Assembly: GCF_005871165.1 (NCBI RefSeq)
Contig: NZ_SWKP01000005.1
Span: forward strand, 186,001 to 250,000
Direction of reading: 5' to 3'
Length of the DNA stretch: 64,000 nucleotides
DNA from: Maricaulis alexandrii
GTDB lineage: Bacteria; Pseudomonadota; Alphaproteobacteria; Caulobacterales; Maricaulaceae
Shown here: in pieces, positions 3,857-62,803 of the stretch
Numbering within the stretch: position 1 is the first letter of the stretch
Layout of the letters: each line of letters starts with the position of its first letter
Translations under genes and position numbers: made by a program
Notes under the pieces: model-generated
Databases searched by the model: none
Seen by the model: the letters and a program-made list of their open reading frames with translations, nothing else
What the model was told of the DNA's origin: nothing

Positions 3857-3862
3857 GCGCGA

Positions 3863-5530: not shown

Positions 5531-5533
5531 GCC

Positions 5534-6508: not shown

Positions 6509-6531
6509 TCACAGGCCTTTGATCCGGCAAA

Positions 6532-6570: not shown

Positions 6571-6585
6571 GATCTGGCAGACCGA

Positions 6586-7890
<1,305 letters not shown>

Positions 7891-8123
7891 GGTGTCTATC
7901 TATCGGCCAGAAAGGGCGGGATTCCCGGTGGAAAACCGTTGGGAATCATCGCGATCAAGCAAAACGGGCGCCGTTTGGTATCGGACGACCCGTGATCTGT
8001 GGAATGGGCTGGCGCGCCGTGGGAAATGTCCCGGGTCACGCAAAGAAGGGATCCTGGAAAGGAGTTGACCGAAGCCTTGCCACGCCCGATGCAGAAGGTC
8101 AAGCACTGCTGGCCTTCACGTCC

Positions 8124-9631: not shown

Positions 9632-9646
9632 GTCTCACTCCGTCTT

Positions 9647-12566: not shown

Positions 12567-13411
12567 GCCGGATCAGCGGATCGGCCCGGCTGGCGGGTGT
12601 GGTCGGGGACCCGATCGCCCATTCCCTGTCGCCCGCCCTGATGCGCTTCTGGATCGAGGCGCTGGATCTGAATGCCCTCTATGCCCCTTTTGCGGTTCCG
12701 GCCGCCGGGTTTGATAGCTTCGTCGAGGGTATCGCCGAATCCCATATCGCCGGGTTGAATGTGACCCTTCCGCACAAGGAAGCGGCCCTGGCCCTGTCGG
12801 ACACGGCGAGCAAGGCGGCCCGCGAAATCGGAGCGGCCAATCTCCTGACATTCGCGGATGGCAAAATCCATGCGGACAACACGGATGCGGCCGGTTTCCT
12901 GGCAGCCCTGAAACCTGCCAAAATAAAGTACCGGCAGTCCACCGCCCTGGTGCTGGGGGCTGGCGGCGCATCCCGGGCGCTGGTCTATGCGCTCCTGACA
13001 TCCGGGATCTCGCGCCTGATCCTGTCCAACCGGTCGAAATCACGGGCCGAGCGCCTGGTTGATGAAATCGCGCCCATGGCGGCCGTCGTGGACTGGGACC
13101 AGAAGGACAATGTCCTCGCCGAAGCCGATCTGGTCATCAATGCCACTTCGCTGGGACTCAAGGGAGTGGATCCGCTTCAATTGGACTGGAAACGGGCCAA
13201 GCCCGGATCGGTCGCCTTTGACAGTGTCTACACACCGCTGGAAACCGAGTTTCTGAAGGGGGCCCGCCAGAGAGGACTGACCGGTGTGGACGGGCTCGAC
13301 ATGCTGATCGGTCAGGCGCGGCCGAGCTTCCGGGCCTTTTTTGGTCGCGAAGCCCCGATCCTGCCACCGGTCCGGCCGGCCCTGGTCGCGCAATTGGGGG
13401 ACGAGGCGTGA
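12563..13411 (+). CDS. aroE: shikimate dehydrogenase
   Basis: NADPH-dependent reduction of 3-dehydroshikimate in aromatic amino-acid synthesis. 282 aa. Substrate-site motifs GDPIAHSLSPALMRFWIEAL, NVTLPHKEAAL (catalytic Lys) and ADNTDAAGFLAAL (Asp) are present, followed by a Rossmann motif GAGGASRALVYALL and the adenosine-phosphate-binding NRSKSRAE. Overlaps maf and coaE by 4 bp each. Confidence 0.97.
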   Translation: MSRISGSARLAGVVGDPIAHSLSPALMRFWIEALDLNALYAPFAVPAAGFDSFVEGIAESHIAGLNVTLPHKEAALALSDTASKAAREIGAANLLTFADGKIHADNTDAAGFLAALKPAKIKYRQSTALVLGAGGASRALVYALLTSGISRLILSNRSKSRAERLVDEIAPMAAVVDWDQKDNVLAEADLVINATSLGLKGVDPLQLDWKRAKPGSVAFDSVYTPLETEFLKGARQRGLTGVDGLDMLIGQARPSFRAFFGREAPILPPVRPALVAQLGDEA

Positions 13412-13995
13412 AGATTGTCGGCCTTACCGGCTCCATCGGGATGGGCAAGTCCGCGACCGCCAAGCTCTTTCGCGAACAGGGCGTACCGGTCTTCGACTCC
13501 GACGCCATCGTGCATGAACTCTATGATGTGGGCGGTGCGGCCGTGAAACCGGTCGGAGCGGCGTTTCCAGGCGTGGTTCATGAAGGCGCGGTGGACCGGG
13601 AGATATTGTCGGCCCGCTTGCGGGAGGACCCGTCCGGGTTTGAAACCCTGGAAGCCATTGTCCATCCGCTGGTTGGCCGGGCCCGGCAGCATTTCCTGAC
13701 CCAGGCGGAAAAGGCCGGCGCCCCCTTTGTCATCCTGGATGTGCCGCTCCTGTTCGAAACGGGCGGGCATGAGCATGTTGATGCCGTGGTTGTTGTCCAT
13801 GCGCCGCAGGATGAGCGCCGGGCGCGTGTCCTGCAGCGTCCGGGCATGACGGATGAGAAGCTGGACGCCATAATCGCGCGTCAGACACCTGATTCGGTCA
13901 AACTGGACCAGGCAGACTATATCGTTGAAACTTCGGGCGGTTTTGACGATGCTCGCCGACAGGTGAGCGCAATTGTCAAGAAGTTGGCAGGATAG
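13408..13995 (+). CDS. coaE: dephospho-CoA kinase
   Basis: Last step of coenzyme A synthesis, phosphorylating the ribose 3'-OH of dephospho-CoA. 195 aa with P-loop GLTGSIGMGKSATAKLF at the N-terminus, DSDAIVHELY (substrate Asp) and DVPLLFETG. GTG start at 13408 overlaps the aroE stop (GTGA). The aroE-coaE-dnaQ order is standard in alphaproteobacteria. Confidence 0.97.
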   Translation: MKIVGLTGSIGMGKSATAKLFREQGVPVFDSDAIVHELYDVGGAAVKPVGAAFPGVVHEGAVDREILSARLREDPSGFETLEAIVHPLVGRARQHFLTQAEKAGAPFVILDVPLLFETGGHEHVDAVVVVHAPQDERRARVLQRPGMTDEKLDAIIARQTPDSVKLDQADYIVETSGGFDDARRQVSAIVKKLAG

Positions 13996-14031
13996 GGTGC
14001 TCCCGGTCCGCCGGCGATAAACGGGGTGGAT

Positions 14032-14730
14032 ATGCGGGAAATCGTTTTCGATACCGAGACCACGGGCCTGGACCCGAAGACCGGCGACCGGATCACCGAA
14101 CTGGGCTGTGTCGAAGTGATCGACTGCATCCCGACGGGGCGCACCTTCCACACCTGGGTCAATCCGCAGCGCGACGTGCCGGACGAAGTGGTGAAGATCA
14201 CCGGCCTGACCACGGAATTCCTCAAGGACAAGCCGCTTTTCGAAGAGATCGCCCAGGACTTTGTCGAGTTTGTCGGGGATGCGGTCATGGTGGCGCACAA
14301 TGCGCCCTTCGACCGTGGCTTCATCAATATGGAGCTCGCCCGGCTGGGAATCGACATCTATCCCGATGACCGGTTCAAGGACACGGCGCGGATCGCCCGC
14401 GCCAAATTTCCCGGCTCCTATGTCTCGCTGGATGCGCTCTGCAAGCGTTTCGACATTTCCCTGGAAACCCGGAATGTTCACGGTGCCCTGATCGACGCCA
14501 AATTGCTGGCGGAAGTCTATCTGGAACTGACCGGCGGCCGCACCCAGGTGCTCGACCTGTCCGGCAAGGGCGCGGAATCATCCGGCGAGGGCAAGGTCAG
14601 TTTTCCGGCCCGCCCGGCCCGTCCGCGGGCGCTGGCGTCCCGCCTGAAAGACGAAGAGCGCGCCGCCCATTCCGCCTTTGTCGACGAAATGGGCGAAAAC
14701 GCGCTCTGGAAAGTCCTGACGTTGAACTGA
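14032..14730 (+). CDS. dnaQ: DNA polymerase III epsilon subunit (3'-5' proofreading exonuclease)
   Basis: 232-aa DEDDh exonuclease. Exo I is REIVFDTETTGLDP, Exo II MVAHNAPFDRGFI, Exo III HGALIDAKLLAEVY, giving the DEDD acids and the His. The C-terminal tail (about 185-232) would bind the polymerase alpha subunit. Start ATG 14032 is preferred over GTG 14026 because GGGGTGGA then serves as the ribosome-binding site. Last of the rightward chain of five genes from the origin; convergent with secB. Confidence 0.96.
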   Translation: MREIVFDTETTGLDPKTGDRITELGCVEVIDCIPTGRTFHTWVNPQRDVPDEVVKITGLTTEFLKDKPLFEEIAQDFVEFVGDAVMVAHNAPFDRGFINMELARLGIDIYPDDRFKDTARIARAKFPGSYVSLDALCKRFDISLETRNVHGALIDAKLLAEVYLELTGGRTQVLDLSGKGAESSGEGKVSFPARPARPRALASRLKDEERAAHSAFVDEMGENALWKVLTLN

Positions 14731-14734
14731 CGGC

Positions 14735-15262
14735 CTAGTTGGCAGCCGCCGGGTCGCCATTGCCGTTCGGCTCGGAACCCGGAGCGGCGGCGGCACGCTG
14801 GGCCAGCTGCTGGCGGTAGAGCTGCGAGAAATCCACCGGCTCAAGCATGAGCGGCGGGAAATTGCCGTCGCGGGTGGCGTCAGCGAGAACGCGGCGCGCA
14901 TACGGGAAGATCAGGCGCGGGCATTCGATCAGCAGAAGCGGCTCGCGTTCCTGGTCCGACACATTCGCCATCTGGAACAGGCCGGCATAGGTCAGCTCGG
15001 CGATGAAGACGACGTCCTTGCTTTCCTGGTCGCGCGAGGCGCGGGCCGAGATGGACAGGGCCACTTCGAACGTATCCTCACCCAGCGACCGGGCTTTCAC
15101 GTCGATCGACAGGTCAATGCCCGGAGCCGGCTGGCCCGGACGCAGCGTGTCGGGCGCGCCCGGATTCTCGAAGGACAAATCCTTCACATACTGGGCCAGG
15201 ACGCGCAGTTGCGGCTGGGTCGGAGCTTGATTGTCGGCGGGCGTGGACGGTGCGTCGGTCAT
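14735..15262 (-). CDS. secB: protein-export chaperone SecB
   Basis: Cytosolic tetrameric chaperone that keeps preproteins unfolded for SecA. 175 aa; the core LAQYVKDLSFENPGAP and AELTYAGLFQM..ECPRLIFPYARRVLADATRDGNFPPLMLEPVDF is the SecB signature. The Ala/Pro/Gly-rich tail (AAAAPGSEPNGNGDPAAAN) is longer than in E. coli. Start taken at 15262 (MTDAPST); the frame further upstream lacks family similarity. Convergent with dnaQ. Confidence 0.96.
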   Translation of the reverse strand: MTDAPSTPADNQAPTQPQLRVLAQYVKDLSFENPGAPDTLRPGQPAPGIDLSIDVKARSLGEDTFEVALSISARASRDQESKDVVFIAELTYAGLFQMANVSDQEREPLLLIECPRLIFPYARRVLADATRDGNFPPLMLEPVDFSQLYRQQLAQRAAAAPGSEPNGNGDPAAAN

Positions 15263-15448
15263 GTGGATCCCCGGATGGGTCATGTGAAACGGCAACAACC
15301 CGCAAGCGGGCTGAACAAAACTAGCCCGGGCGGTTAGCACGCAGACCCCGTTGCGGCAAGGCAGGAGCACCGCACCCGGGTGGCTGACGTGACCGGCAAT
15401 CCGCCCTATATTCAGGGGCAATCAAGCAACCCCTGACAGGCGGACCCG

Positions 15449-16078
15449 ATGTTCGAGCTCTTTTCAACTGTGCTTTTTGGTGCTGTGGCGGTGTTTTTTG
15501 CCATTCGGCTCTACTCCGTCCTGGGCCGACGCGAAGGGCATATGGAAGCACCGGCATCGCGGGATCTGGACGGGGCCAACCCGTCCAAACCGGACGCGTC
15601 GGGACATTTGCGCCCGGCTTTCGAAGGACCGGCCGCCGCGGGCCTGGAAGCCATTGCCCAGGCCGACCAGAGCTTTGATCCGGAACTCTTCCTCGATGGC
15701 GCCCGCAAGGCCTATGAGATGATTGTCATGGCCTTTGCCAAGGGGGATCGCGAGGCCCTCAAGGGCCTGCTCGCCCCGAAAGTCTATGATCGCTACGAGG
15801 CGGCCATCGCCCAGCGTGAGGTCAAGGGCGAGACCGTCCGCACGGACATTGAACGCATCCGCAAGGCCGAGATCATCGAAGCAGGCCATGCGGATCACAC
15901 CGCCACGATCAAGGTGCATTTCGATGCCGAGATCGCCACGGAAACCCTCGATGCTGACGGCAAGGCCATCGCCGGTGATTTTTCCCGCCTGGCCACGGTT
16001 CACGAGGACTGGGTGTTCGAGCGCCGCACCGATACTGCCAATCCGAACTGGGTCCTGGTCCGTGTTGCGACGGCCTGA
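15449..16078 (+). CDS. Tim44/TimA family protein
   Basis: 209-aa protein with one N-terminal membrane helix (FELFSTVLFGAVAVFFAIRLYSVLG) followed by a disordered linker and a Tim44-like domain (about 75-209: ALDGARKAYEMIVMAFAKGDREALKGLLAPKVYDRYEAAIAQRE). In Caulobacter the homologous TimA is an inner-membrane protein of unclear job; mitochondrial Tim44 anchors the import motor. It lies in the alphaproteobacterial secB-timA-mltA-smr neighbourhood. The end overlaps the mltA start by 17 bp. Confidence 0.92.
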   Translation: MFELFSTVLFGAVAVFFAIRLYSVLGRREGHMEAPASRDLDGANPSKPDASGHLRPAFEGPAAAGLEAIAQADQSFDPELFLDGARKAYEMIVMAFAKGDREALKGLLAPKVYDRYEAAIAQREVKGETVRTDIERIRKAEIIEAGHADHTATIKVHFDAEIATETLDADGKAIAGDFSRLATVHEDWVFERRTDTANPNWVLVRVATA

Positions 16079-17306
16079 ATTCGTCCTGGCGGCCGGCGCC
16101 GCGCTCCTTCTGGCTGCTTGCCAACCCCGTCCGGAACCCGAGCCGGAACAGCCGGACGAACCGGTCTTCACCCCGCAAGCGATGGACTTTCTGCCCGTGG
16201 ACTGGGCGGCGATGTCGTCCTGGTCGCAAAGCGATCTGGCACCGGCCCTGTCGGCCTTCCGTCGCAGCTGTGCCCGGATCACGCGCCGGGATGATGCCGA
16301 CCCGCTGAGCGCGCGGGCCGCCTGGGCAGGCACGGTCGGCGAATGGCGTCCGGCCTGCGGCGCGGCTGACAGTGTGCCGGACGCACCGGAGTCGATCCGG
16401 GCCTTCTTTGAAACCCATTTCACACCGGCCCGGGCCCGCGCCGTCGATCCGGATACGGGTGAAACCGCGCTGACCGGCCGGCTGACCGGCTATTACGAAC
16501 CCTTTGTGGAAGTGCGCGAGCAGGCGGGCGGTGAATTCACCCAGCCCCTGCGGCGCCGGCCGGATGATCTGGTCACCGTGGATCTGGGCCTGTTTGATCC
16601 GGATCTGTCCGGGCGCCGGATTGTGGGCGAGGTCGAGGACGGGCGCCTTGTGCTCTACAAGGATCGCGCCGAGATCGAAGCCGAGAATGCCGGCGAAGTC
16701 TTCGCCTGGGGCCGGCCGATCGATGTCTTCTTCCTGCAGATCCAGGGGTCGGGCCGGCTGGTCTTTCCCGATGGTCACCAGGAACGCGCCGCCTTTGCCG
16801 CCCATAATGGTCTGCCCTACCGCTCGATCGGACGGGAACTGATCCAACGCGGCGAGCTGGAAGCCCATGCGGCCTCCAAGTCTGGGATCGAAGCCTGGCT
16901 GAATGAGAACGGTCCCGAGGCCACGGCGGAACTTTTCGCGGTCAATCCGCGCTACGTCTTTTTCCAGACCCAGATGCTGGACGATCCGGACCTGGGTCCG
17001 AACGGGTCATCCGGTGTTGCCCTGACGCCGATGGCCTCCATTGCGGTGGATCCGGCGCACCATGCCCATGGCGTTCCGGTCTGGCTGGAAGCCTCGGCCC
17101 TGCCGGAGCTGGGTGACTGGTCGGGCCTGGTCGTGACCCAGGATGCCGGCGGTGCGATCACCGGTCCGCTTCGGGCCGACTTCTTCTGGGGTTGGGGCGA
17201 AACGGCTGAACGCCGGGCCGGCAGCACGCGCAGCGATGCAGGCTGGATCCTCCTTCTGCCGCACACGGTTGTGGCGCGCCTGTTCGCGGCGCAGGACCCG
17301 GTCTGA
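16062..17306 (+). CDS. mltA: membrane-bound lytic murein transglycosylase A
   Basis: Outer-membrane lipoprotein that cleaves the glycan strands of peptidoglycan to 1,6-anhydromuropeptides. 414 aa from a GTG at 16062; the signal peptide LRRPEFVLAAGAALLLAAC gives a lipobox LAAC and is followed by a Pro/Glu linker. MltA domain (GYYEP...VFFLQIQGSGRLVFPDG) and the terminal 3D domain (LVVTQDAGGAITGPLRADFFWGWG), whose Asp is catalytic in the family. The start overlaps the Tim44-like gene and smr follows after 6 bp. Confidence 0.93.
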   Translation: MLRRPEFVLAAGAALLLAACQPRPEPEPEQPDEPVFTPQAMDFLPVDWAAMSSWSQSDLAPALSAFRRSCARITRRDDADPLSARAAWAGTVGEWRPACGAADSVPDAPESIRAFFETHFTPARARAVDPDTGETALTGRLTGYYEPFVEVREQAGGEFTQPLRRRPDDLVTVDLGLFDPDLSGRRIVGEVEDGRLVLYKDRAEIEAENAGEVFAWGRPIDVFFLQIQGSGRLVFPDGHQERAAFAAHNGLPYRSIGRELIQRGELEAHAASKSGIEAWLNENGPEATAELFAVNPRYVFFQTQMLDDPDLGPNGSSGVALTPMASIAVDPAHHAHGVPVWLEASALPELGDWSGLVVTQDAGGAITGPLRADFFWGWGETAERRAGSTRSDAGWILLLPHTVVARLFAAQDPV

Positions 17307-52972: not shown

Positions 52973-53132
52973 CCGATTTGGACTTCGGGATGGTTAAGCC
53001 TGTGGAAAACCCAATGCTGATGGCGGGTTAGCGGTTTCTTAAGAAATTCGCCCCGGCCTTTTGGCAGACGGTCGTTTCCTGCCACGACACGCCCGAACAC
53101 GGTTTCTATGTTTCGGTATGTCGGGGAATAGC

Positions 53133-54068
53133 ATGGCGGCACGGACAAGCTCAGTAGCGTTCGAGGGAGCCGAAGCCCGCCGGGTTGAGGTGCAAGTCCA
53201 GATTGCAGGCGGGTCCCAGCCGATCTTTTCCGTCGTGGGTCTGGGCGACAAGGCGGTCAATGAAAGCCGGGAACGGGTGCGCGGGGCTTTCTCAGCGATC
53301 GGCCTGTCCCTGCCGTCGAAACGCCTGATCGTGAATCTGGCGCCGGCGGACCGGCCCAAGGAGGGGGCGCACTTCGATCTGCCCATCGCAATCGGTGTCC
53401 TCGCCGAGCTCGGCGTTCTGCCCAAGGATGCTGCCGAGGACTATCTCGTCTTCGGGGAGCTGGGGGCCGACGCCCGTATCCGTCCGGCGCCTGGAGCGCT
53501 GCCCGCAGCGGTCGCAGCCAATGCCGCCGGATTGTCGCTGATCTGTCCGGAGGCCAGTGGTCCGGAAGCCGCCTGGGCGGGTGGCGATCTGCCCATTCTG
53601 GCCCCGGCGACGCTGATCCAGCTGATCAATCACTTCAAGGGCAGCCAGGTCCTGGCCCGTCCGGCGCCGGGTGAGCTCGTCGAAACCGACGCCTTGCCGG
53701 ATCTGCGCCAGGTGAAGGGTCAGGAAAGCGCCAAACGGGCCGTCGAGATCGCGGCGGCCGGACACCATAATCTCCTCATGGTCGGCCCACCCGGTTCGGG
53801 CAAGTCCATGCTGGCCGAACGCCTGCCCGGGCTCTTGCCACCGCTCGACCCGTCCGAACTGCTGGACGTGTCCATGATCCATTCCGTGGCGGGTCTGCTG
53901 GAACGGGGCTGTCTGACCCGGTCACGCCCTTTCCGCTCGCCCCACCACTCCGCTTCTATGGCGGCCATGGTCGGGGGCGGTACGCGGGCCCGGCCCGGTG
54001 AGGCCTCCCTGGCGCACCATGGGGTGCTCTTTCTCGACGAATTGCCGGAATTCCACGGCATTATGTAG
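53133..54068 (+). pseudogene. comM: ComM (YifB), AAA+ Mg-chelatase-family helicase, 5' fragment interrupted by insertion
   Basis: ComM-type hexameric helicase that aids branch migration in transformation and recombination in other bacteria. The fragment (311 aa) carries the N-terminal domain ([40 protein letters not shown]), the Walker [20 protein letters not shown], and ends at Walker [12 protein letters not shown], followed by HGIM and a TAG contributed by the element's left end. Residues up to F307 are native. Removing 54056-62196 joins LDELPEF to HPQVLDSLRQP and restores a 509-aa frame. A LexA-type box precedes it. Confidence 0.93.
54048..54055. repeat. target-site duplication, left copy
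   Basis: GAATTCCA immediately before the element's left end; repeated at 62189-62196 immediately after its right end. An 8-bp duplication is the size reported for IS1595-family elements. Confidence 0.95.
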
Positions 54069-54079
54069 CAAATGCACAA
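54056..54079. repeat. left terminal inverted repeat of the IS1595 element
   Basis: Begins CGGCATTATGTAGCAAATGC and matches the inverted right end at 22 of 24 positions. It contains the TAG that ends the ComM 5' fragment. An A-run (up to 54084) follows, similar to the right side. Confidence 0.93.
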
Positions 54080-54103
54080 AAAAAGTGGTCGTACGATGTA
54101 TTG

Positions 54104-54346
54104 TTATGAGAGGTCTTGGACCATCTTAGCTGTCTTTCGGTCTCGTGATTTAGGTGAATCATCTAATATTTGTTTGTTCTTATCAAGGTGAAGACGAGCA
54201 CCATCCGATTCCACATATTCATTCAATATTGCGCGCACTAATTTCGACAGTGTGAGCCCATGACCAGATGCAGCATTATGCAAATGATTATATGTTTCCT
54301 CATCGAGAGAAAGTGAAAATCGTTTGATCTTGGATGTTTGACTCAT
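54104..54346 (-). CDS. ribbon-helix-helix (CopG-like) protein
   Basis: 80 aa from ATG 54346: MSQTSKIKRFSLSLDEETYNHLHNAASGHGLTLSKLVRAILNEYVESDG. The beta strand KRFSLSLDEET and two helices are the RHH DNA-binding fold used by antitoxins and plasmid regulators; a basic tail follows. The start overlaps the stop of the upstream membrane ORF (ATGA). Alone it has no identifiable toxin, but see the neighbour. Confidence 0.75.
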   Translation of the reverse strand: MSQTSKIKRFSLSLDEETYNHLHNAASGHGLTLSKLVRAILNEYVESDGARLHLDKNKQILDDSPKSRDRKTAKMVQDLS

Positions 54347-54546
54347 GGATGGCTCCAATTATTGATCCAGAGCAGTTTTACAGCCGCTGACGCCTGAAAG
54401 ATTAAGAAAAGGCAGACAAACATGAACCCCAAACGATGGAGACTTTGGTTATAGAAGGGAAATCGCTTCATCGTGTTTGGCATCCTATCATCTAGAATGA
54501 GGAACAGCATCTCGATGGATGCGATTATGCTCATAATTTGAAACAT
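54343..54546 (-). CDS. small two-helix membrane protein paired with the RHH gene
   Basis: 67 aa from ATG 54546 (MFQIMSIIASIEMLFLILDD...LGFMFVCLFLIFQASAAVKLLWINNW): helix 1 at about 3-18 and helix 2 at about 43-62. GGGAG seven bases upstream supports this start over a longer GTG frame. Overlaps the RHH gene by 4 bp; might be a toxin-like or membrane partner, but no family is recognised. Confidence 0.55.
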   Translation of the reverse strand: MFQIMSIIASIEMLFLILDDRMPNTMKRFPFYNQSLHRLGFMFVCLFLIFQASAAVKLLWINNWSHP

Positions 54547-54931
54547 CAGCGCGCGCTCCCATACATTCTGTGTCACAGGAACTGTAAGCGATGAGCAATT
54601 AACAGAGACTTAAAAGTGCACCAATTGCACTCCGGTATAGAGTTCCAAAACTCTGACTTGTTATGGCAAAAACACTATATGTGGTAGGAATAAAACAGGA
54701 ACGACCGCCACCACTTGACGAAGAATGGTTTCCGCTATTTCATTTTGTGGAGCGGAGTCGAAAAGGGCCGCAGGGTCTTCCACACCCGTACGGCCCAGAT
54801 CGATTTCGTCCCCGTGACCATTGTTGGTGGTCGAGCGCGGGGCGTGTGCGGAAATCGGATGGCTACGGAATCGCGATCTGACTCTGGTGTCAAGGCTCGA
54901 CCACGCATTTTGGCAAGAAAGGCCAAGTGTT
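54547..54931. other. gap of about 385 bp without a confident gene
   Basis: Upstream of the RHH/membrane pair, which reads left, and of the ORF at 54932, which reads right. Three overlapping rightward frames (from 54663, 54715 and 54821) are open for 70-120 codons but none has convincing coding character, and they end or frame-shift against one another. It may hold promoters and a decayed gene. Confidence 0.4.
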
Positions 54932-55186
54932 ATGTCAAGCTATGATGTAGCCCTGATTAAAGAACAGGGCGTCACCTTCGCAGTGGTCTCGGTCAAGGAC
55001 CACATCCTTCACAACACCCATGAGTCCAACAAGGCGGTCGAAGCGTTCAGCTACGAGTTTGGCTGTCCCGCCGTGATCATGGGGGCGAGGAACCATAAGC
55101 TTTATGGGCGTCGCGATCTGGTGAATTTCCTTTCGAGGATTTCCATTTCGCGGCTGCCGTGGAAGCGCTGGAACCGCGCAGCATAG
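54932..55186 (+). CDS. small hypothetical protein
   Basis: 84 aa from ATG 54932: MSSYDVALIKEQGVTFAVVSVKDHILHNTHESNKAVEAFSYEFGCPAVIMGARNHKLYGRRDLVNFLSRIS. Mixed alpha/beta look (VTFAVVSVK, PAVIMGARNHKLYGRRDL) with no membrane segment. Family not recognised. An upstream frame in phase (54821) could be an older N-terminus but has no family support. Confidence 0.5.
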   Translation: MSSYDVALIKEQGVTFAVVSVKDHILHNTHESNKAVEAFSYEFGCPAVIMGARNHKLYGRRDLVNFLSRISISRLPWKRWNRAA

Positions 55187-55232
55187 TCCGGGTGGCCGAA
55201 TGTCACCGAACGACGTTCGGCCACTCATTCAC

Positions 55233-56000
55233 TCACGGTATGAGCTTGCACAATTCCGTCTCGGCCAATGCCGGATATCCGGCATTTTCGTAGCTCCGCA
55301 CCTCATCCACAATTCGTTTCGCCCGCCGAATTTCATTGTTCCGCCACTCTGCGGATTCATTGGGGCTAAGACTGTCAAAGACATGGAACACATAGTCTCG
55401 CAAGTTTGAGCAGAGGAAGTAGTTTCTGTCCGTGATCCATTTTTCAAATCTGAAACTGTCAAAAACATGATTTCTGTTGGCGTTCCATATTTTTGCTAGT
55501 CGAATTGTTGGTTTCAGCTTTGAGCCTTCCTCTCCATTCCGCTCTGATAAATGAGAGCTGAATTCAAGAGGCGAAGTTCCCTGCCAACCAAGAGCCAAAT
55601 CTGGAATTTGATACTCTCGCCACAAAGACGTTATCGCTGGTACCAAATCAAATTTGATATGGTTTAGCTCTAGAACCAGTGAAGGCGAGTCCTGCTTTAT
55701 GGACGAACTGGGGTAGTAATACTCTGCGAATTTTTTCAGCCGGGCCAAATAGGTTTGTGGCTGAAAGCTTCCGTCTGCGAAAACCACCATATAGTCGATG
55801 TCTGATCGCGAGTCGTATGACCTCGGTAAGATAGTGCCGCGCGTTGACGACCCGAACCGGAAGTGCCGAACAAGGTCGTTTCCAAAATAAGAATCCAGCC
55901 GCGCTGAAATGGTATTGATTGAAGTCGTTATGGAGGCTTGCTCCGGCCCCGATAGAATCGCGGCTGATGCCCTGCTCTGCAAATGGCCCAGAACACTCAT
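55233..56000 (-). CDS. Pol-beta-fold nucleotidyltransferase, SMODS/CD-NTase-like
   Basis: 255 aa. Catalytic core FRFGSSTRGTILPRSYDSRSDIDYMVVF gives the GS loop (G50, S51) and DxD acids D67 and D69; the third acid is D118 in HIKFDLVPAI. This spacing is that of cGAS/DncV-like (CD-NTase) enzymes that make cyclic or linear oligonucleotide messengers in CBASS defence. The C-terminal helical half is shorter than in typical CD-NTases (about 300-400 aa), so it may be a minimal SMODS. All catalytic acids are present. Overlaps the SLATT gene stop (ATGA), so the two are translationally coupled. Product unknown. A non-CBASS nucleotidyltransferase remains possible. Confidence 0.8.
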   Translation of the reverse strand: MSVLGHLQSRASAAILSGPEQASITTSINTISARLDSYFGNDLVRHFRFGSSTRGTILPRSYDSRSDIDYMVVFADGSFQPQTYLARLKKFAEYYYPSSSIKQDSPSLVLELNHIKFDLVPAITSLWREYQIPDLALGWQGTSPLEFSSHLSERNGEEGSKLKPTIRLAKIWNANRNHVFDSFRFEKWITDRNYFLCSNLRDYVFHVFDSLSPNESAEWRNNEIRRAKRIVDEVRSYENAGYPALAETELCKLIP

Positions 56001-56506
56001 TTTGTTACTCCATCATCAACTTCATGAAGTGCTTCACCTTCTTCAATGCCTTTGCGTGCTTTTTGAAAATCAGAGTTCAAGAATGTGGGTGCAGCGCGGT
56101 TTAGGTCTTTTTGGCGGCTCACAAGAACGTCCAGCAGGTCAGACGTTAGTGAAACGTCATCCGCTGTTGGGAGACGAATTGTTCGGAACCGCCTAACATC
56201 GCCCTTGAGTGCAAGGTATTGATCGCCTGCACCCTTGTGCTCAGCGGCTTGTTCGGCGGGTTTTAGAAAAGTTAGCAGAGCGGTTAGGATCGTTGCGGCC
56301 AGTGACAGAACACCCGCAACTACATGATAATCTGCGAAGATGGCTGTTCCGGCGGCTGCGCTAGATATAACGGCACAACTTCCCAGAATCCGATGTTGCC
56401 ACGTCAGCCGTTCCGTAGCGTTGAAATGGGCTTTACCCGTGTATTTGCAGTCTTCTTCGACCCTGCGAAGCTCCGCATCGATGCTCGATCTCGTGTCTTC
56501 GTTCAT
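55997..56506 (-). CDS. SLATT domain (two-transmembrane) protein, likely effector
   Basis: 169 aa. Two hydrophobic helices, about 40-60 (ILGSCAVISSAAAGTAIFADY) and 62-81 (VVAGVLSLAATILTALLTFL), are followed by a cytoplasmic helical region KPAEQAAEHKGAGDQYLALKGDVRRFRTI and the end APTFLNSDFQKARKGIEEGEAL. This is the SLATT (SMODS and SLOG-associating two-TM effector) layout. SLATT proteins are predicted membrane-damaging effectors activated by nucleotide signals. First gene of the operon; the nucleotidyltransferase follows with a 4-bp overlap. Confidence 0.82.
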   Translation of the reverse strand: MNEDTRSSIDAELRRVEEDCKYTGKAHFNATERLTWQHRILGSCAVISSAAAGTAIFADYHVVAGVLSLAATILTALLTFLKPAEQAAEHKGAGDQYLALKGDVRRFRTIRLPTADDVSLTSDLLDVLVSRQKDLNRAAPTFLNSDFQKARKGIEEGEALHEVDDGVTK

Positions 56507-56606
56507 AACGCCCCAACCTTTTCATTCGGAACTTACATGGGGGTTCCAACCGCAGGTGTGATCCTCGTCACGTAAAAGTGCTGTGGATTACGGGCCTAAG
56601 TACTAG
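56507..56606. promoter_or_regulatory. divergent promoter region of the SLATT operon and a small ORF
   Basis: 100-bp gap between the leftward SLATT-nucleotidyltransferase operon and the rightward 112-aa ORF. Promoters for both must lie here; no clear operator or hairpin was seen. Confidence 0.35.
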
Positions 56607-56945
56607 ATGGAAAACAACAATGCCGATCAGGCACAGTCTCAAAGTACGATTGTCTGCCGCGCTCTGGCGCTAACCGATGAGGCTTGGCGAGCCAACGCTG
56701 CTGGACGTGAATTTGACTTTCGTCGGGTAGAAATGGGGTTCGAGGCATTGCTGGCCTCTGTCGCCACTATGGAACTAGACCCTTCTCTTGAAAGAGACCC
56801 GGTCGTGTCAAACATTCTCAGAGTGCTTTCTTCATCCAACGTGATAGCGCGGCGCTACGATCACCGCCACGCATTCGATCTGCTAGTGCGAGCCGCCGGA
56901 CCGATCACCGACAAGGCAAAGTGTTTAGATACGGCGAAACGCTAG
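56607..56945 (+). CDS. hypothetical protein, 112 aa
   Basis: Soluble, charged (MENNNADQAQSQSTIVCRALALTDEAWRANAAGREFDFRRVEMGFEALLASVATMELDPSLERDPVVSNILRVL...). No motif recognised. Divergent from the SLATT operon and may be regulated with it. It overlaps the 3' end of the following lipoprotein gene by 4 bp. Confidence 0.5.
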   Translation: MENNNADQAQSQSTIVCRALALTDEAWRANAAGREFDFRRVEMGFEALLASVATMELDPSLERDPVVSNILRVLSSSNVIARRYDHRHAFDLLVRAAGPITDKAKCLDTAKR

Positions 56946-57454
56946 TTTCTAGGCCTACTACGGTAATGCCCTCGAACGTAAGTTCCATCAGATCGATAGT
57001 AGCCTTGGACGTATACAGTTCTTGGCCTGCCGGTCTGGCTGCTAATGTCGCCATAACACGACCCGTTCTCAGCACAGTGTGGTCTAGTGCCGGTAGGTGA
57101 ATTGACACTCGACGAACTCAGATAGTCAGTTCGCGCAATGATGGCTTCCTCGACAGAGTCATACTGATTGCCATTGAAAACATAGACAGGTGAAAACGAT
57201 GAGGCCGGAATGCCGTCACTAGAAACGTTTGCGCCGGAAGGCCGATAACAGTGACAGGTGTCTTGGTATTCTAGAGACGCCCCGTCACCTGTCTCTCGTC
57301 TCAGCGGGTTCTGAACCACTTCGATTGGCGGGATTTGGCCTTTTTGTTGGGCAATGTAGGCAGCAGACTGCGGCCCCATCAGCGGACTTGTGGGACCATA
57401 GTAAGAACACGCACTCAAAAGAATGGCCGCAAACGTCACTGTGATAAGCCGCAC
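56942..57454 (-). CDS. predicted lipoprotein
   Basis: 170 aa from GTG 57454 (MRLITVTFAAILLSACSYYG), a signal peptide with lipobox LSAC. GGGAGG a few bases upstream supports this start over GTG 57460. The body is polar with repeated Ser/Tyr/Gly (CHCYRPSGANVSSDG, YYRSDGTYVRGHYRSRP). Function unknown; might be an envelope adaptation cargo. Confidence 0.6.
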   Translation of the reverse strand: MRLITVTFAAILLSACSYYGPTSPLMGPQSAAYIAQQKGQIPPIEVVQNPLRRETGDGASLEYQDTCHCYRPSGANVSSDGIPASSFSPVYVFNGNQYDSVEEAIIARTDYLSSSSVNSPTGTRPHCAENGSCYGDISSQTGRPRTVYVQGYYRSDGTYVRGHYRSRPRN

Positions 57455-57525
57455 GATCACCTCCCGCTTTTCGTGTGGAACGTTCTATCACATCTAGTCG
57501 TAGACCTACTAGGCAGGCTGATTGC

Positions 57526-57825
57526 CTAATCAACGTAGTAGCTCGTCCCCCAATCCGGTTCGGCGGTGTAGCGGACAACGCAACGCATGGTTTGTTGTCC
57601 CATTCCGCCGAAGCCGTTACGCGCCGTGACATCCCACGTGACGATGTAACTATGATTGCTTGCTGATCGAACCGAGCTGTTTTCAAAACGCGAACCAGCC
57701 GGTTCGCGAAGGCGTTCTCGCAAGTGTTCTTTGCAAATGCCTGCGGCATCAATTTCAGGATTGAACTCACAACCAGAAGCCAGCACGCACGTAGCCGCCA
57801 GCAGGAACACCTGCTTCACACGCAT
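57526..57825 (-). CDS. small predicted lipoprotein
   Basis: 99 aa from ATG 57825 (MRVKQVFLLAATCVLASGC; lipobox ASGC) with TGGAGA six bases upstream; a longer start at 57837 is less likely. The body reads EFNPEIDAAGICKEHLRERLREPAGSRFENSSVRSASNHSYIVTWDVTARNGFGGMGQQTMRCVVRYTAE. Function unknown. Divergent from the XRE gene. Confidence 0.6.
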   Translation of the reverse strand: MRVKQVFLLAATCVLASGCEFNPEIDAAGICKEHLRERLREPAGSRFENSSVRSASNHSYIVTWDVTARNGFGGMGQQTMRCVVRYTAEPDWGTSYYVD

Positions 57826-57852
57826 CACGATCTCCATGTAAATATAAGAAGA

Positions 57853-57878
57853 TCGTATATCGCAAAATCGTATTTATG
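57853..57878. promoter_or_regulatory. direct repeats in the divergent XRE promoter, possible operator
   Basis: Between the lipoprotein and XRE genes, ATCGTATATCGC and ATCGTATTTATG lie head to tail, sharing ATCGTAT. A position just upstream of an XRE gene suggests autoregulation. Confidence 0.4.
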
Positions 57879-57906
57879 CAAGCGCTGGTTTCAGAGGCCA
57901 GCGATC

Positions 57907-58164
57907 ATGCCGAAGTCGGTTTTCACGGATGCGTATAAGACGTTCTTGGACGTGCTGATTCAGGCGCGGAAGGATGCTGGTGTAACGCAGGCCGAGCTGG
58001 CGGAACGGTTAGGCAAACCTCAGCCATGGGTTTCGAACATCGAGCGCGGAATTAGGCGGGTTGATGTTATCGAGTTCATAGCGATCTGCCACGTGTTGCG
58101 CGTCCAACCTGATGCGACCATCTCCACAATATCAGATAGGTTGTCCCCGCCTATTTCGATTTAG
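57907..58164 (+). CDS. XRE family HTH regulator
   Basis: 85 aa from ATG 57907: MPKSVFTDAYKTFLDVLIQARKDAGVTQAELAERLGKPQPWVSNIERGIRRVDVIEFIAICHVLRV. A standard helix-turn-helix of the Cro/C1 type, with TQAELAERLGKPQPWVSNIERG as the core. No partner toxin is recognised, but the next gene follows 12 bp downstream. Confidence 0.85.
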   Translation: MPKSVFTDAYKTFLDVLIQARKDAGVTQAELAERLGKPQPWVSNIERGIRRVDVIEFIAICHVLRVQPDATISTISDRLSPPISI

Positions 58165-58176
58165 ACGAGGCCGCCG

Positions 58177-58926
58177 ATGCCGATTACTCCTCCCGCAATC
58201 TCCACAAAGCGACTGCTCGCTAGAAAGCTGCTCGATGCGGTGGTTGGCGAGGTACCGCTAGTCGGAGGCCCTTTGGCAGCGCTCTATAGTGTAACTCACC
58301 CCGCGAAGGGCGATATTCAGTTTAATCAATGGGTTACCGAAATCACCGCACTCGTGAATTCACTAGAGCAGGCGATTAAATACGTATCACAAAGCATCAC
58401 GCTATCTGAGGAGGCTGCATCCTTCGGTCTTTGGATCGCGCAACAATCAGAATCCGGCGGTAGGTTTGATCTTCTAAGCTATGATCATTTAGTCGAGAAT
58501 TTCGAGTGCCCAAATGGCGCTTCTCTTTCTGACCTCGTTGGCGAACTCGAACTGGAAGGGATGCTGAGAGTCTCCAAATGTCTAGGCAAGCCGTTCTCTT
58601 CCGTCCGGCCCTCGCACAAACTGTTTGAAACTTTCGATCCGGTAATTTTCGACGAGGCTAACCCACGTAGCGACGCAGCTCAGATTGTTCAGCGGTATCT
58701 TACAAAAGAAGAAGATGCGATTTCCGCGTCCAAGCTAGCCGAAGACTTCGGCTGGTTGCCTCGCCGGTTAAATCCAGCTTTGGCTATCATCGCTGACTAC
58801 ATCGGCGAGCGACGGATAAGTGCGCCAATGGGACAGCCCTATGTCGCGCGCGTAATGTTTCCGGACATTAGCGAGCGAATTGCGCTTAAACGGCTTGTCC
58901 AATCAGTTCAGGGAGATCAGAACTAA
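58177..58926 (+). CDS. uncharacterised protein with possible C-terminal winged helix
   Basis: 249 aa. N-terminal region contains a weakly hydrophobic stretch (KLLDAVVGEVPLVGGPLAALYSVTHP), a central acidic helical region (EQAIKYVSQSITLSEEAASFGLWIAQQS), and a C-terminal part whose ISASKLAEDFGWLPRRLNPALAIIADYIGERRISAPMG looks like a winged helix-turn-helix. Lies 12 bp after the XRE gene and is probably co-transcribed. No family recognised; could be the second half of an accessory regulatory or defence module. Confidence 0.6.
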   Translation: MPITPPAISTKRLLARKLLDAVVGEVPLVGGPLAALYSVTHPAKGDIQFNQWVTEITALVNSLEQAIKYVSQSITLSEEAASFGLWIAQQSESGGRFDLLSYDHLVENFECPNGASLSDLVGELELEGMLRVSKCLGKPFSSVRPSHKLFETFDPVIFDEANPRSDAAQIVQRYLTKEEDAISASKLAEDFGWLPRRLNPALAIIADYIGERRISAPMGQPYVARVMFPDISERIALKRLVQSVQGDQN

Positions 58927-59076
58927 AAAATTGCGTGCTGCAATTTCCGCTGCGAGAACACTAAATATATGATTGTCATATATTGAATGGGCCCGTTATG
59001 TGGAAGTACTACTATTTCGAACAAATAATTAAGACTGATGGGTCAATTGAATATCGACAAATTAGAAGGTGGAAAG

Positions 59077-59286
59077 CTATTCTTTTAATGGCAAGATGCG
59101 GGTTCCAGCATCTCGTAAATGCTTGCAAGACAATAAGATAGTTCCGCCATCATCATTTTGTTCTTTCGCGACGCACATCGTATTCCAAGTGAAAGCATCT
59201 GCTTGTTCAATCTCGCGTCCGTCAGGTAGCGTGACGGATACCATTTCAAACCCACATTCTTCACACTTTACTTTTGGCTTAGCCAT
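59077..59286 (-). CDS. small cysteine-rich protein
   Basis: 69 aa: MAKPKVKCEECGFEMVSVTLPDGREIEQADAFTWNTMCVAKEQNDDGGTILLSCKHLRDAGTRILPLKE. CEEC and two further Cys (MC, SC) could bind zinc. Overlaps the stop of the upstream short ORF by 8 bp. Function unknown. Confidence 0.5.
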   Translation of the reverse strand: MAKPKVKCEECGFEMVSVTLPDGREIEQADAFTWNTMCVAKEQNDDGGTILLSCKHLRDAGTRILPLKE

Positions 59287-59506
59287 TTTTGAAATTCATC
59301 CTAGATTTGTCCGCGGATCGCACCTTCACTAGTGAGATGTCGCTGTCGTCGTTGCCGATCACATTAATTGCTTCGCCAACCATGGCTTCAATCTGTTCGA
59401 CATTCGCGGAATGCATTTCGAGCGAGGTGTATAGAACGAGAACACGTTTCCACTCAGCATCTTGAATCTCATATTCAAATTCATGCGATACTAAATTTTC
59501 CACCAT
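59279..59506 (-). CDS. hypothetical protein, 75 aa
   Basis: Starts at ATG 59506 (MVENLVSHEFEYEIQDAEWKRVLVLYTSLEMHSANVEQIEAMVGEAINVIGNDDSDISLVKVRSADKSRMN) with TGGAG nine bases upstream. No known family. Leftward pair with the cysteine-rich gene. Confidence 0.5.
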   Translation of the reverse strand: MVENLVSHEFEYEIQDAEWKRVLVLYTSLEMHSANVEQIEAMVGEAINVIGNDDSDISLVKVRSADKSRMNFKNG

Positions 59507-59611
59507 GTCATTTTGCTCCACGTATTGTTGTGCTTTGGGTTTTGTCCCACCAAGGTGGAGTATTGCGGGGCTGTCGAAAAACACAAGACCGTAGCATTTG
59601 TTGAGGCGGAG

Positions 59612-60046
59612 ATGAGCCGAGCGCAAGTCTGTAAAACGTTGGAGCGAAAGTACGCCGCTGTTCTTGGCGAGTTTGTTGCGGCGCCCGCTGCCGACAATGC
59701 CGACAGCCTAAAGGAAGCCCTTGCCGCCATCCAGATCGTCATCCGCCTTTGGGAACCGGATTGGCTGCCGGATCACATCAAGCCGATCAGACCGAAACAG
59801 TCCTACGCGACGCACGGCATTCAAAGCCGCCTTCTCTTTGAATTCATCGGCGCTCGAACCGGAAGCTTCACGGCTATGGAAGCGGCAGAATACGTATCTG
59901 TCAGGTTGGAAGCGCTAGGCGAGACCATTCCGCCCATCGAAAATATTAAAATAAACGCACACAACTTAATGCGCAAACTGGAGAGTAAATTTGTCGTGTC
60001 AAATAATACACGGCCTGAAACTTGGACAAAGATAAATAAAAAGTAG
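59612..60046 (+). CDS. IS1595-associated helical protein
   Basis: 144 aa from ATG 59612 (MSRAQVCKTLERKYAAVLGEFVAAPAADNADSLKEALAAIQIVIRLWEPDWLPDHIKPIRP), with GAGGCGGAG just before. Helical throughout; the second half (LLFEFIGARTGSFTAMEAAEYVSVRLEALGETIPPIENIKINAHNLMRKLE) looks like a winged helix-turn-helix. Proteins of this shape stand beside IS1595 transposases in alphaproteobacteria as I recall; role unknown. Confidence 0.65.
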   Translation: MSRAQVCKTLERKYAAVLGEFVAAPAADNADSLKEALAAIQIVIRLWEPDWLPDHIKPIRPKQSYATHGIQSRLLFEFIGARTGSFTAMEAAEYVSVRLEALGETIPPIENIKINAHNLMRKLESKFVVSNNTRPETWTKINKK

Positions 60047-60130
60047 CCTGCATTGCTTTTTTAGTTGACAATATACGAAATCCGTATATATCGACGCGCG
60101 CATTGATTCGTTAACTACACGGAGGCGCAG

Positions 60131-61162
60131 TTGAACAATGACGGATGCACGGCAAAGACTAAAAGTCGCCCGCTTCGGAACCCGACGCGGAAAGGTCAAC
60201 ACTATCGGATGGCATCGGCCTATCGGAATTTCCGGCCCGTAGATATTGCTACGATGCCCAAGCGGAAACTCCATAAACTTTGGATGAAGCTGGCGTTTCC
60301 TCTGACTGGTGGAGAACCATATTGTCCGCGCTGCGGATCGGTTCGCTACACGCACATCAAGACGCGGAAACAATACCGCTGTCGGGATTGCGAGCACCGC
60401 TATAGCAACACGTCAGGCACCATGTTCGCCTGCCGGAAACTGCCGATCCGAGACATTCTTTTTGGTATTGCTGAATTTCAAGACGAGGAAGATGCCTGTA
60501 CGGCGCATTCCTTCGCTCGAAAAATGGGCGTTTCATACAAAACCGCTTGGGTGATGGCACATAAGGTGCGCCAGCTCATGTTCGCGGCTCGATCCAATAT
60601 TTTGATTACCGAAGATGTTGCGGTTGACGGTGCCTACTTTGGTGGCGTGCTCCGAAACATCAACGTCAAGAAAAATCGAAACGATCATCGTCTCAAAAAA
60701 TTTCGGCACCAGAACAAGAAGAAGGTGGTTGTGATCGTCAAAGGACGAATTACAAACTCCACGATCCTTGCTCGTGAATTTGTGTCTGAAGCGGAAGCGG
60801 TTGATTGGGTTCGCGGTTGTGTTCCCAAGGACAAAAAGATTTTCACTGACGAGGCTAATCACTGGAATTCGTTGGGAGCATCCCACGAACACCACACCAT
60901 TAATCACAAGCAAGCCTACAAGATTGGTGACAACGATACGAATGCGGCTGAGAGCTTTTTCAGCACCTTCCGCGTCGCATCGAAGGTCTATCGTTCCGTA
61001 AGTCGTGGCTACTTCACCGCGTACATCAATGAGCAAGTTTGGCGACGTACTGCCAAACTGGCGCGGTCCAACCTTGATCGATTTCTTGATGTAGTGAGCC
61101 ACATCCGAGATGTGGTGAACAAGTTTCGTGGTTATTGGCAATTCGGGGAGATGACGGCGTGA
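60131..61162 (+). CDS. IS1595 family transposase (ISXO2-like)
   Basis: 343 aa from a TTG at 60131, chosen because GGAGG lies 5 bases upstream; ATG 60209 is the alternative. Zinc ribbon CPRCGSVRYTHIKTRKQYRCRDC near residues 65-90, then ISXO2-like DDE core: DVAVDGAYFGG, TDEANHWNSLG, HHTINHKQAYKIGDNDTNAAESFFSTFRVASKVYR. The three catalytic acid sites are present, so it looks active. GIY-YIG gene follows with GTGA overlap. Read toward the right inverted repeat. Confidence 0.93.
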   Translation: MNNDGCTAKTKSRPLRNPTRKGQHYRMASAYRNFRPVDIATMPKRKLHKLWMKLAFPLTGGEPYCPRCGSVRYTHIKTRKQYRCRDCEHRYSNTSGTMFACRKLPIRDILFGIAEFQDEEDACTAHSFARKMGVSYKTAWVMAHKVRQLMFAARSNILITEDVAVDGAYFGGVLRNINVKKNRNDHRLKKFRHQNKKKVVVIVKGRITNSTILAREFVSEAEAVDWVRGCVPKDKKIFTDEANHWNSLGASHEHHTINHKQAYKIGDNDTNAAESFFSTFRVASKVYRSVSRGYFTAYINEQVWRRTAKLARSNLDRFLDVVSHIRDVVNKFRGYWQFGEMTA

Positions 61163-61650
61163 CCGATCTCTGTCCAAGCTTGTGTCCAGACCACAATTTG
61201 AAATTTGAACTGTTCACGCCAGACGAGCTTTTTAAAAAATTGGCCCAGCATGATGTTGGCGGCATTTATTCCATCGGCCTAACACGCATCCACGAAGTGC
61301 TAGTTCGGGCTGGATACATCAAGGAAGCGCCGGAAGTTTGGACTGGTAGCCATTTCCACGTCTATGTCGGTGAAACCTATTCTTTGAAGGTCCGTATGGG
61401 TCAACACTTCGGCCTTGATGGTGAAGTATCAAACTTCCGAACCACCTTAGCCATGGTCCTTGGAATGGATGACGCGGCAACGAAGCGCTTTCTGTTCGAA
61501 AAGGCCGTAATCGGTTGGCGTTATGTAGACTTCATGGGTGATGTGGAACGCGATCTGATCAAGAGAACGGCTTGCCCCTTAAACCTACGAGGCAAAGGCC
61601 CGTCGCCATTTGCAAAGCGGCTTCGGAAGTTGAAACGGCAGATCGGCTAA
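61159..61650 (+). CDS. GIY-YIG nuclease-like protein, transposase-coupled
   Basis: 163 aa from GTG 61159, overlapping the transposase stop by 4 bp. GGIYSIGLTRIHEVLVRAGY and HVYVGETYSLKVRMGQHFG give the GIY and YVG (for YIG) halves with the spacing of the family, with Arg in KVRMG; the C-terminal part has CPLNLRGKG like the last conserved Asn. GIY-YIG enzymes cut DNA. The genetic coupling suggests a role in transposition. Confidence 0.78.
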   Translation: MTDLCPSLCPDHNLKFELFTPDELFKKLAQHDVGGIYSIGLTRIHEVLVRAGYIKEAPEVWTGSHFHVYVGETYSLKVRMGQHFGLDGEVSNFRTTLAMVLGMDDAATKRFLFEKAVIGWRYVDFMGDVERDLIKRTACPLNLRGKGPSPFAKRLRKLKRQIG

Positions 61651-61655
61651 AGAAC

Positions 61656-62120
61656 CTAGCGGTGCACAGATTTCCATCCTGCGCGACCAGTCTCTAGAAT
61701 CTTCTTTTCGACCTGACCATTTTTCCGCATCTTCGTGAGACATGCGGAAACTCGCTTAGTCATAAGCGTGATGAGTGAGCGATCCTCAATCGGCAAGTTC
61801 CGCTTCTCCATCATGACCAATGCGATCTCCGTGGAGGTCACATAGTTATCCGCTTTTCTCAGCACTGAATGCACAATCCGCGTTACTTCTCCGCGAAACG
61901 CCTGATGACGCGGAGGAACCGGTTTCGCGTCGATATCGCATACATCGATGTCTGGATCGAAAATGCGAAGAGTCGCGTCTACGGCATCCAGTTCAGAGAC
62001 CAGATTCCGAAGCTCTTGCTGATTGTGCTCAATTTTGCCAGCGATCTCCGCACGCTTTCTAATAAGAGCGTGAAGAACATTTGGGTTGTCGGTGTCCGAC
62101 GAGATCAGTGCGTTTGCCAT
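61656..62120 (-). CDS. IS1595-associated hypothetical protein, 154 aa
   Basis: Coiled-coil-rich (LHALIRKRAEIAGKIEHNQQELRNLVSELDAVDATLRIFDPDIDV) then a basic region VPPRHQAFRGEVTRIVHSVLRKADNYVTSTEIALVMMEKRNLPIEDRSLITLMTKRVSACLTKMRKNGQVEKKI with winged-helix appearance. I recall very similar proteins next to transposon genes in many alphaproteobacteria; the function is unknown. It lies just inside the right inverted repeat, tail to tail with the GIY-YIG gene. Confidence 0.7.
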   Translation of the reverse strand: MANALISSDTDNPNVLHALIRKRAEIAGKIEHNQQELRNLVSELDAVDATLRIFDPDIDVCDIDAKPVPPRHQAFRGEVTRIVHSVLRKADNYVTSTEIALVMMEKRNLPIEDRSLITLMTKRVSACLTKMRKNGQVEKKILETGRAGWKSVHR

Positions 62121-62164
62121 GCGCTGTAAATAGCAAATACAGAGGGGATTCTGTACTCTTTTTA

Positions 62165-62188
62165 TTGTGCAAATGCTACATAATGCCG
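62165..62188. repeat. right terminal inverted repeat of the IS1595 element
   Basis: Inverted copy of the left end, 22 of 24 positions identical; ends CTACATAATGCCG. It contains an ATG (62183) in frame with the ComM 3' fragment. Flanked by the right copy of GAATTCCA. Confidence 0.93.
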
Positions 62189-62803
62189 GAATTCCATCCC
62201 CAGGTGCTCGACAGTTTGCGCCAGCCCCTGGAGACCGGGTCCATCACCGTGGCGCGGGCCAATGCCCATATCGCCTATCCGGCGCGTTTCCAGCTCATTG
62301 CCGCGATGAATCCCTGCCGCTGTGGCGGGGGCGGGACGGATGGCCAGTCCTGCCGACGCGGGCCGCGATGTGCCAGCGACTACCAGGCGCGGATTTCCGG
62401 GCCCATGCTCGACCGGATTGATCTGCAAATCTATGTGCCGCCGGTGACGCCCGCCGATCTGGCCCTGCCGCCGCCCGTGGAGGGCTCGGCGGAGGTGGCC
62501 GCGCGGATCGCCGGGGCGCGGGAAGGCCAATTGGAGCGTGGCTTTCTCAATGCGCACATGCCCACGGATGTGCTGGATCATGTCGCCGCGCCGGACCGGG
62601 CCGGGGAGGCCCTGCTGCGCGAGGCGGCCCTGTCCCAGAACCTCACCGCCCGCTCCTATCACCGCATCCTGCGCGTCGCCCGCACGATCGCCGATCTGGA
62701 GGGGCAGGATGCGGTGCGCCGGATCCATATCGCCGAAGCCCTTGCCAGCCGTCGCGGTCTGGTCAGCGCCACCGCCTCCAGCCAGGGTCAGCCGGTGGTC
62801 TGA
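62183..62803 (+). pseudogene. comM: ComM (YifB), 3' fragment
   Basis: The 3' half of comM. From the ATG in the right inverted repeat it reads MPEFHPQVLDSLRQPLETGSITVARANAHIAYPARFQLIAAMNPCRCGGGG...GPRCASDYQARISGPMLDRIDLQIYVPPV, then the C-terminal helical domain of Mg-chelatase-type ComM. Native residues start at 62189. Alone it lacks Walker A and B, so it cannot hydrolyse ATP. No ribosome-binding site was seen before the ATG, so expression is doubtful. No further frameshift was seen, so the insertion is probably recent. Confidence 0.93.
62189..62196. repeat. target-site duplication, right copy
   Basis: GAATTCCA, identical to 54048-54055. Confidence 0.95.

Follow-up and report, generated by a model that had tools for sequence, protein, structure and literature searches.

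An IS1595-family transposon in comM of Maricaulis alexandrii, with a candidate winged-helix target selector and a transposase-coupled GIY-YIG nuclease

The window, by which we mean the whole 64,000-nucleotide stretch of Maricaulis alexandrii DNA that was analysed, contains an 8,133 bp transposon of the IS1595 family (positions 54056-62188) that interrupts the host gene comM. The element is bounded by 24-bp terminal inverted repeats (TIRs), the arms of which agree at 22 of 24 positions, and is flanked on both sides by an exact 8-bp target site duplication (TSD), GAATTCCA. The GC content drops from approximately 65% to approximately 50% across this stretch. The original prediction had singled out a conserved-looking quartet comprising a winged-helix protein, a transposase, a GIY-YIG protein and a coiled-coil protein; all four open reading frames are present, and constitute the right-hand portion of the transposon. 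The features of the locus are:

53061-54055, + strand: host comM (Mg-chelatase-like ATPase; PF01078/PF13541), 5' part, up to DELPEF
54048-54055, no strand: TSD GAATTCCA, left copy, within the E-F-H codons of comM
54056-54079, + strand: left TIR, CGGCATTATGTAGCAAATGCACAA, matching the right arm at 22 of 24 positions
55233-56000, - strand: CBASS oligonucleotide cyclase (CD-NTase, SMODS; PF18144, 1.1e-36; PADLOC PDLC00769, 4.6e-101)
55997-56506, - strand: 2TM SLATT effector of the CBASS operon (PDLC00712, 3.3e-53; NF033632, 9e-34)
59612-60046, + strand: 144-aa accessory paralogue of winged-helix type, with an N-terminal helix and a winged helix (accessory HMM, 8.4e-20)
60131-61162, + strand: IS1595-family DDE transposase with an N-terminal zinc ribbon (PF12762, 4.5e-26; PF12760, 1.1e-7; NF033547, 3.9e-31)
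61159-61650, + strand: predicted GIY-YIG nuclease (GIY_YIG_2; PF20815, 3.9e-9), the start of which overlaps the transposase stop (GTGA)
61656-62120, - strand: 154-aa accessory protein, the candidate target selector (AF2 model pLDDT 87; homologue in 87 of 93 loci)
62165-62188, - strand: right TIR
62189-62196, no strand: TSD GAATTCCA, right copy, an exact repeat of the left copy
62197-62803, + strand: host comM, 3' part (PF01078/PF13335)

The element belongs to the IS1595 family by every feature tested. Its transposase is of the IS1595/ISXO2 type (PF12762, NF033547), carrying the DDE_Tnp_IS1595 domain with a catalytic triad that is invariant across the transposase alignment (D140, D214 and E248, numbered by the first sequence of alignment A3). 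An N-terminal zinc ribbon is expected in all IS1595 groups except IS1016, and is present here, with conserved cysteines. The transposase is encoded by a single open reading frame, with the element containing further genes besides. The duplication is an exact 8 bp, and a GG lies near the end of the TIR, with CGG... being the consensus over 66 delimited elements, for each of which an exact 8-bp TSD was a requirement of the search. These correspond to the published traits of the family, namely 8-bp TSDs, GG ends and a zinc finger (PMC8101967).

The insertion splits comM between DELPEF and H, in the Walker B region, and joining the two flanks with one copy of the TSD restores the reading frame. 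A search of 18 further genomes of the genus found full-length comM in every one (77-95% identity); the split gene is confined to the window, so this insertion is young. The cyclase gene and the adjacent effector gene make up a two-gene CBASS operon. In carrying this operon into comM, the element disrupted the gene. Elsewhere in the cargo, an Xre-type HTH gene followed by a gene for a 249-aa protein without a known family (57907-58926) may represent an undescribed system. Mobile elements frequently disrupt comM in Acinetobacter, where loss of the gene lowers transformation, and comM-interrupting islands carrying CBASS are reported in A. baumannii (PMC11472951).

The quartet is real and recurrent. 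A transposase profile applied to 398 genomes of the order gave bimodal scores, with the upper mode (approximately 65 full copies) corresponding to the clade of the window element; these copies, together with loci from the class, from plasmids and from two Brevundimonas records, make up the 93 clade loci considered here. The TIR search for L012 gave long palindromic artefacts, and was omitted from the counts, and a scan of genome contigs using the transposase alone yielded no confirmed relatives. A member of the accessory family adjoins the transposase in 87 of the 93 clade loci, compared with none of 17 outgroup IS1595 loci. Five of the six clade loci without one lie near a contig end, leaving L158 as the only locus to lack an accessory gene in its full context. 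An independent sample of 36 loci on contigs binned as viral (L168-L203), which are perhaps misassigned host DNA or prophages, again had an accessory gene near most of the clade transposases. Hence the four-part association that was originally proposed stands as a near-universal core of transposase and accessory protein, whereas the GIY-YIG gene is optional, being found in only eight of the 93 loci (the window, L058, L059, L070-L073 and L077). All four components are present in the window, in L058 from the same genome and in L077, as well as in L059 and L070, in which the transposase and nuclease are fused; three of the four are visible in L071, L072 and L073. The second element of the genome, L058 (G000:C9:94001-114000, 1182-11184), is 10,003 bp long, with a transposase approximately 30% identical to that of the window, efflux-type cargo and an apparently frameshifted accessory gene.

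The two proteins flanking the transposase and nuclease had been described as separate families, but this could not be sustained: aligning their family profiles with hhalign gave a probability of 99.4% and an E value of 5e-21 over 152 columns. By their sequence profiles, they are therefore paralogues from a single undescribed family, combining a long helix with a winged helix. Neither the 144-aa nor the 154-aa protein had a meaningful match to a Pfam, NCBIfam, PHROG or PADLOC family. The AF2 model of the latter (mean pLDDT 87) comprises a predicted 42-residue helix (residues 13-54), followed by a winged helix (residues 78-151). The folds that best matched this model were the DNA-binding domains of Fur and MarR proteins, albeit with weak E values of approximately 0.005-0.07, and no PDB entry matched at an E value of 0.001. 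The accessory gene is convergent with the transposase in 78 loci, codirectional in nine and divergent in none; in 61 of 67 cases, a TIR is found within 100 bp of it.

These elements repeatedly enter the same sites. comM contains 22 of the 66 delimited elements, 20 of which lie over the same 8 bp, corresponding to the codons E-F/Y-x after DELP, while the other two share a second comM site; 13 of these insertions are in the same orientation as the gene, and nine in the opposite orientation. The elements at L123 and L112 have accessory proteins that are 88% identical, yet lie in opposite orientations within comM genes that are only 67% identical, and must consequently represent independent insertions at one nucleotide position. 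A single glycosyltransferase gene was hit by at least ten elements at two main sites, with seven at one and three at another. The sites in this gene were GTSNHF, the boundary between NWLT and R, and apparently a third between SIQRL and DYP; insertions in this gene were seen at L122, L124, L127, L133, L146, L160, L161, L051, L135, L140, L138, L154, L156 and L043. The L141 insertion lies beside the CPCALGLATP codons of a P-type ATPase, a highly conserved coding motif. By contrast, amtB was rejected as the target of L045, as this element lies downstream of the gene. In L167, an element of approximately 12.5 kb (roughly 3981-16516) with a truncated transposase occupies comM.

The target site follows the accessory protein, rather than the transposase. 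Accounting for the target labels took 11 changes on the accessory phylogeny and 19 on that of the transposase, relative to 28 for shuffled labels on either. With transposase identity controlled for, sharing a target was correlated with the identity of the accessory proteins (partial r 0.56, permutation p 5e-4); controlling for the latter left no such correlation with transposase identity (partial r -0.01, p 0.59), although these pairwise tests leave some phylogeny in, as the permutations shuffle labels rather than history. The association is not without exceptions, as seven loci have an accessory protein of the comM type with an element outside comM (L045, L054, L058, L059, L070, L116 and L118), indicating that specificity is either not absolute, or has shifted. 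From this comparative evidence, we infer that the 154-aa accessory protein is a target selector.

The GIY-YIG protein scores 37.1 bits against the GIY_YIG_2 domain, above the Pfam cut-off of 22.4, and the window protein retains all of the GIY, YIG, Arg, His/Tyr, Glu and Asn active-site residues, with G35, Y37, Y69, G71, R79, H83, E130 and N142 invariant between the window, L058 and L059 proteins; it is therefore predicted to be a nuclease. A structural model of this protein was of low confidence (pLDDT 65), and was left unused. The overlap of its start with the transposase stop, previously noted as GTGA, is genuine (61159-61162). A -1 frameshift joining the two proteins was considered and rejected: the nuclease frame is indeed -1 to that of the transposase, but no slippery run was apparent by eye; termination-reinitiation at GTGA would be the simpler account of the coupling. 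The gene is directly 3' of the transposase, or fused to it, in seven of the eight loci, the exception being L077, in which it is not adjacent. In four cases, there is an in-frame fusion of 561-581 aa: L059, from Brevundimonas viscosa; L070 and L071, both from Brevundimonas; and L072, which by its group code is from the same genus as L059. Comparisons between the fusions found dN/dS to be 0.04-0.08 in the transposase part, and 0.07-0.19 in the nuclease part, meaning these fusions are under purifying selection. That the fusion occurs in four genomes, with these dN/dS values, favours a working unit over random cargo, as the original prediction had suspected, and this unit would probably act in transposition. 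The transposases of the elements with the nuclease form one clade on long branches, and therefore their single origin is not secure; those in this clade are only 22-31% identical to that of the window, suggesting the association between transposase and nuclease is old. Nevertheless, the absence of the gene from 85 of the 93 loci means it is neither universal nor essential to this family of elements. A paralogue of the 144-aa type was present in all eight loci with the nuclease. A second accessory paralogue also occurs in L166, which was considered as a further example, but rejected, because it has no GIY-YIG open reading frame despite its two accessory genes. Across the 398 genomes, nine loci of the nuclease family were found, six of them inside IS1595 elements, and a search of plasmids and viral contigs gave no match. 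The solitary relatives at L074, L075 and L076 lie outside IS1595 elements in unrelated neighbourhoods, with a recombinase-like gene nearby in one case and restriction-like genes in another.

The best explanation of the locus as a whole, which we consider probable, is that it is a cut-and-paste transposon of the IS1595 family that encodes a target selector of its own. The DDE transposase, the catalysis of which is assumed from its family, would act on the CGG...GTAGCAA inverted repeats to make an insertion with an 8-bp stagger. The 154-aa protein, probably dimerising through its long helix, would use its winged helix to read the E-F-x codons after the Walker B DELP of comM, and thereby bring the transposase to this site, as the comparative evidence suggests. 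Coupled to the transposase at translation in the window, and fused to it in Brevundimonas, the GIY-YIG protein may be an accessory nuclease that raises the efficiency of transposition, for instance by cutting donor or target strands. The weakest part of this scheme is the role of the 144-aa paralogue, which might be a second DNA-binding subunit, perhaps for the transposon end. Finally, the loss of comM would be expected, from the behaviour of other bacteria, to lower transformation, thereby shielding the element from removal. The more general proposal, that a new family of small coiled-coil winged-helix proteins provides swappable, protein-encoded selectors to an IS1595 DDE transposase, targeting single 8-bp sites in comM, the glycosyltransferase gene and possibly other conserved genes, with a GIY-YIG domain joined into the transposase in one lineage, is one on which we regard the balance as even.

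Other explanations can be envisaged for the link between accessory protein and target. The accessory proteins could be passenger transcription regulators that stay with the flank when transposases are exchanged by recombination, such that the link to the target is incidental. Their genes are indeed close to the TIR, and the IS1595-family element ISNha5 is reported with a transcription regulator as a passenger (PMC11891212). However, their near universality is unlike that of a passenger, and accessory proteins that are 80-88% identical are found in opposite orientations within divergent host comM genes, so the same 8-bp site must have been entered independently more than once. Furthermore, the accessory tree alone foretold the targets of three out of three loci, with L144 and L167 splitting comM, and L138 splitting the glycosyltransferase gene, albeit that the ends of these three elements were not located, and their accessory proteins fall inside labelled clades. 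Hence we regard the passenger explanation as improbable. It is more doubtful still that the transposase alone prefers sequences in comM and the glycosyltransferase gene, with the accessory proteins merely diverging alongside it. Many comM TSDs do resemble the palindrome GAATTC, yet transposases that are 80-82% identical have different targets when paired with accessory proteins that are 21-23% identical (L137/L150, L121/L124 and L130/L133), and adding transposase identity to a model that already includes the accessory protein explains nothing further. Precise insertion into conserved coding motifs, repeated across hosts, would also be a property of targeting guided by an RNA from a non-coding part of the element, as in IS110 elements. 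This we consider extremely unlikely, as the longest matches between a target and its own element across 32 elements averaged no longer than those of control windows from the same gene (9.25 versus 9.51 nt), a comparison that extends to guides of at least 8 nt, with shorter split guides beyond its reach.

The nuclease could likewise be cargo with no part in transposition, be it a restriction, defence or homing-like passenger. Its restriction to eight loci, the existence of solitary relatives, one of them near restriction-like genes, and the proof from the CBASS operon that the element carries defence genes are all consistent with such a role. However, the gene overlaps, abuts or is fused to transposases as little as 22-31% identical to that of the window in all but one of its loci, and has been kept while the cargo has varied between CBASS, RND efflux and DUF2130 genes. 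The cargo explanation is therefore unlikely, though worth serious consideration, and it is probable that the GIY-YIG nuclease helps the element to transpose.

Target-selector transposons have so far been mainly Tn7-like or RNA-guided, and the element described here appears to work in a similar manner. In particular, both the Tn7-like Tn6022 and Tsy, an element mobilised by tyrosine recombinases, target the Walker B region of comM via TnsF; Tsy also encodes an HTH protein, together with a GIY-YIG nuclease without which transposition is reduced, though not lost (Faure et al. 2023, PMC10293859). Tsy has its insertion site in common with the window element, and each encodes a small HTH protein as well as a GIY-YIG protein, the last being likened by description rather than sequence comparison. 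Yet Tsy uses tyrosine recombinases, with no inverted repeats detected, and its TnsF selector has a tyrosine recombinase fold, whereas the window element has a DDE transposase, TIRs and a winged-helix candidate; neither a tyrosine recombinase nor a TnsF-like selector was found among the scanned element proteins. Hence, by analogy, Tsy would be a close functional precedent assembled from unrelated parts, including a helper GIY-YIG nuclease. The Tn6022/AbaR islands resemble the window element in their comM target, cargo islands and, if our proposal is correct, dedicated selector protein, but are Tn7-like and depend on TnsF, whereas the window module has a single IS1595 transposase; there were no matches to TnsA, TnsB, TnsC or TniQ in Pfam, PADLOC or NCBIfam among the scanned element proteins. 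The TnsD/TniQ proteins of Tn7 likewise recognise a conserved stretch of coding sequence within a chromosomal gene, but the window element lacks TniQ and an AAA+ regulator, its candidate selector instead being a coiled-coil winged-helix protein of 145-155 aa. Within the IS1595 family, "transporter IS" with passenger genes are known, such as ISNha5 (Siguier 2009, as cited in PMC11891212). These have the same transposase domain, zinc ribbon, 8-bp TSDs, GG ends and additional genes between the TIRs, but the elements described here differ in their near-universal accessory protein that tracks the target, their exact site specificity and their coupling to GIY-YIG, with the ISNha5 regulator compared by description only. 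Among the open-access papers searched, none described a target selector in an IS1595 element, an IS1595 element that targets comM, or a GIY-YIG accompanying an IS1595 transposase.

More important than the functional module that was first suspected are the accessory protein and its accompanying site specificity. If the proposal is correct, then a transposase and a protein of 145 aa would together constitute a one-transposase system of approximately 1.5 kb, representing a simple, testable and perhaps reprogrammable tool for insertion. The fusion of a DDE transposase to a GIY-YIG domain also raises the mechanistic question of which strand the extra nuclease cuts. Furthermore, these elements would be another independent type of mobile element, besides Tn6022 and Tsy, to have converged on the Walker B region of comM, which fits the idea that breaking this gene protects mobile elements from being cured through transformation.
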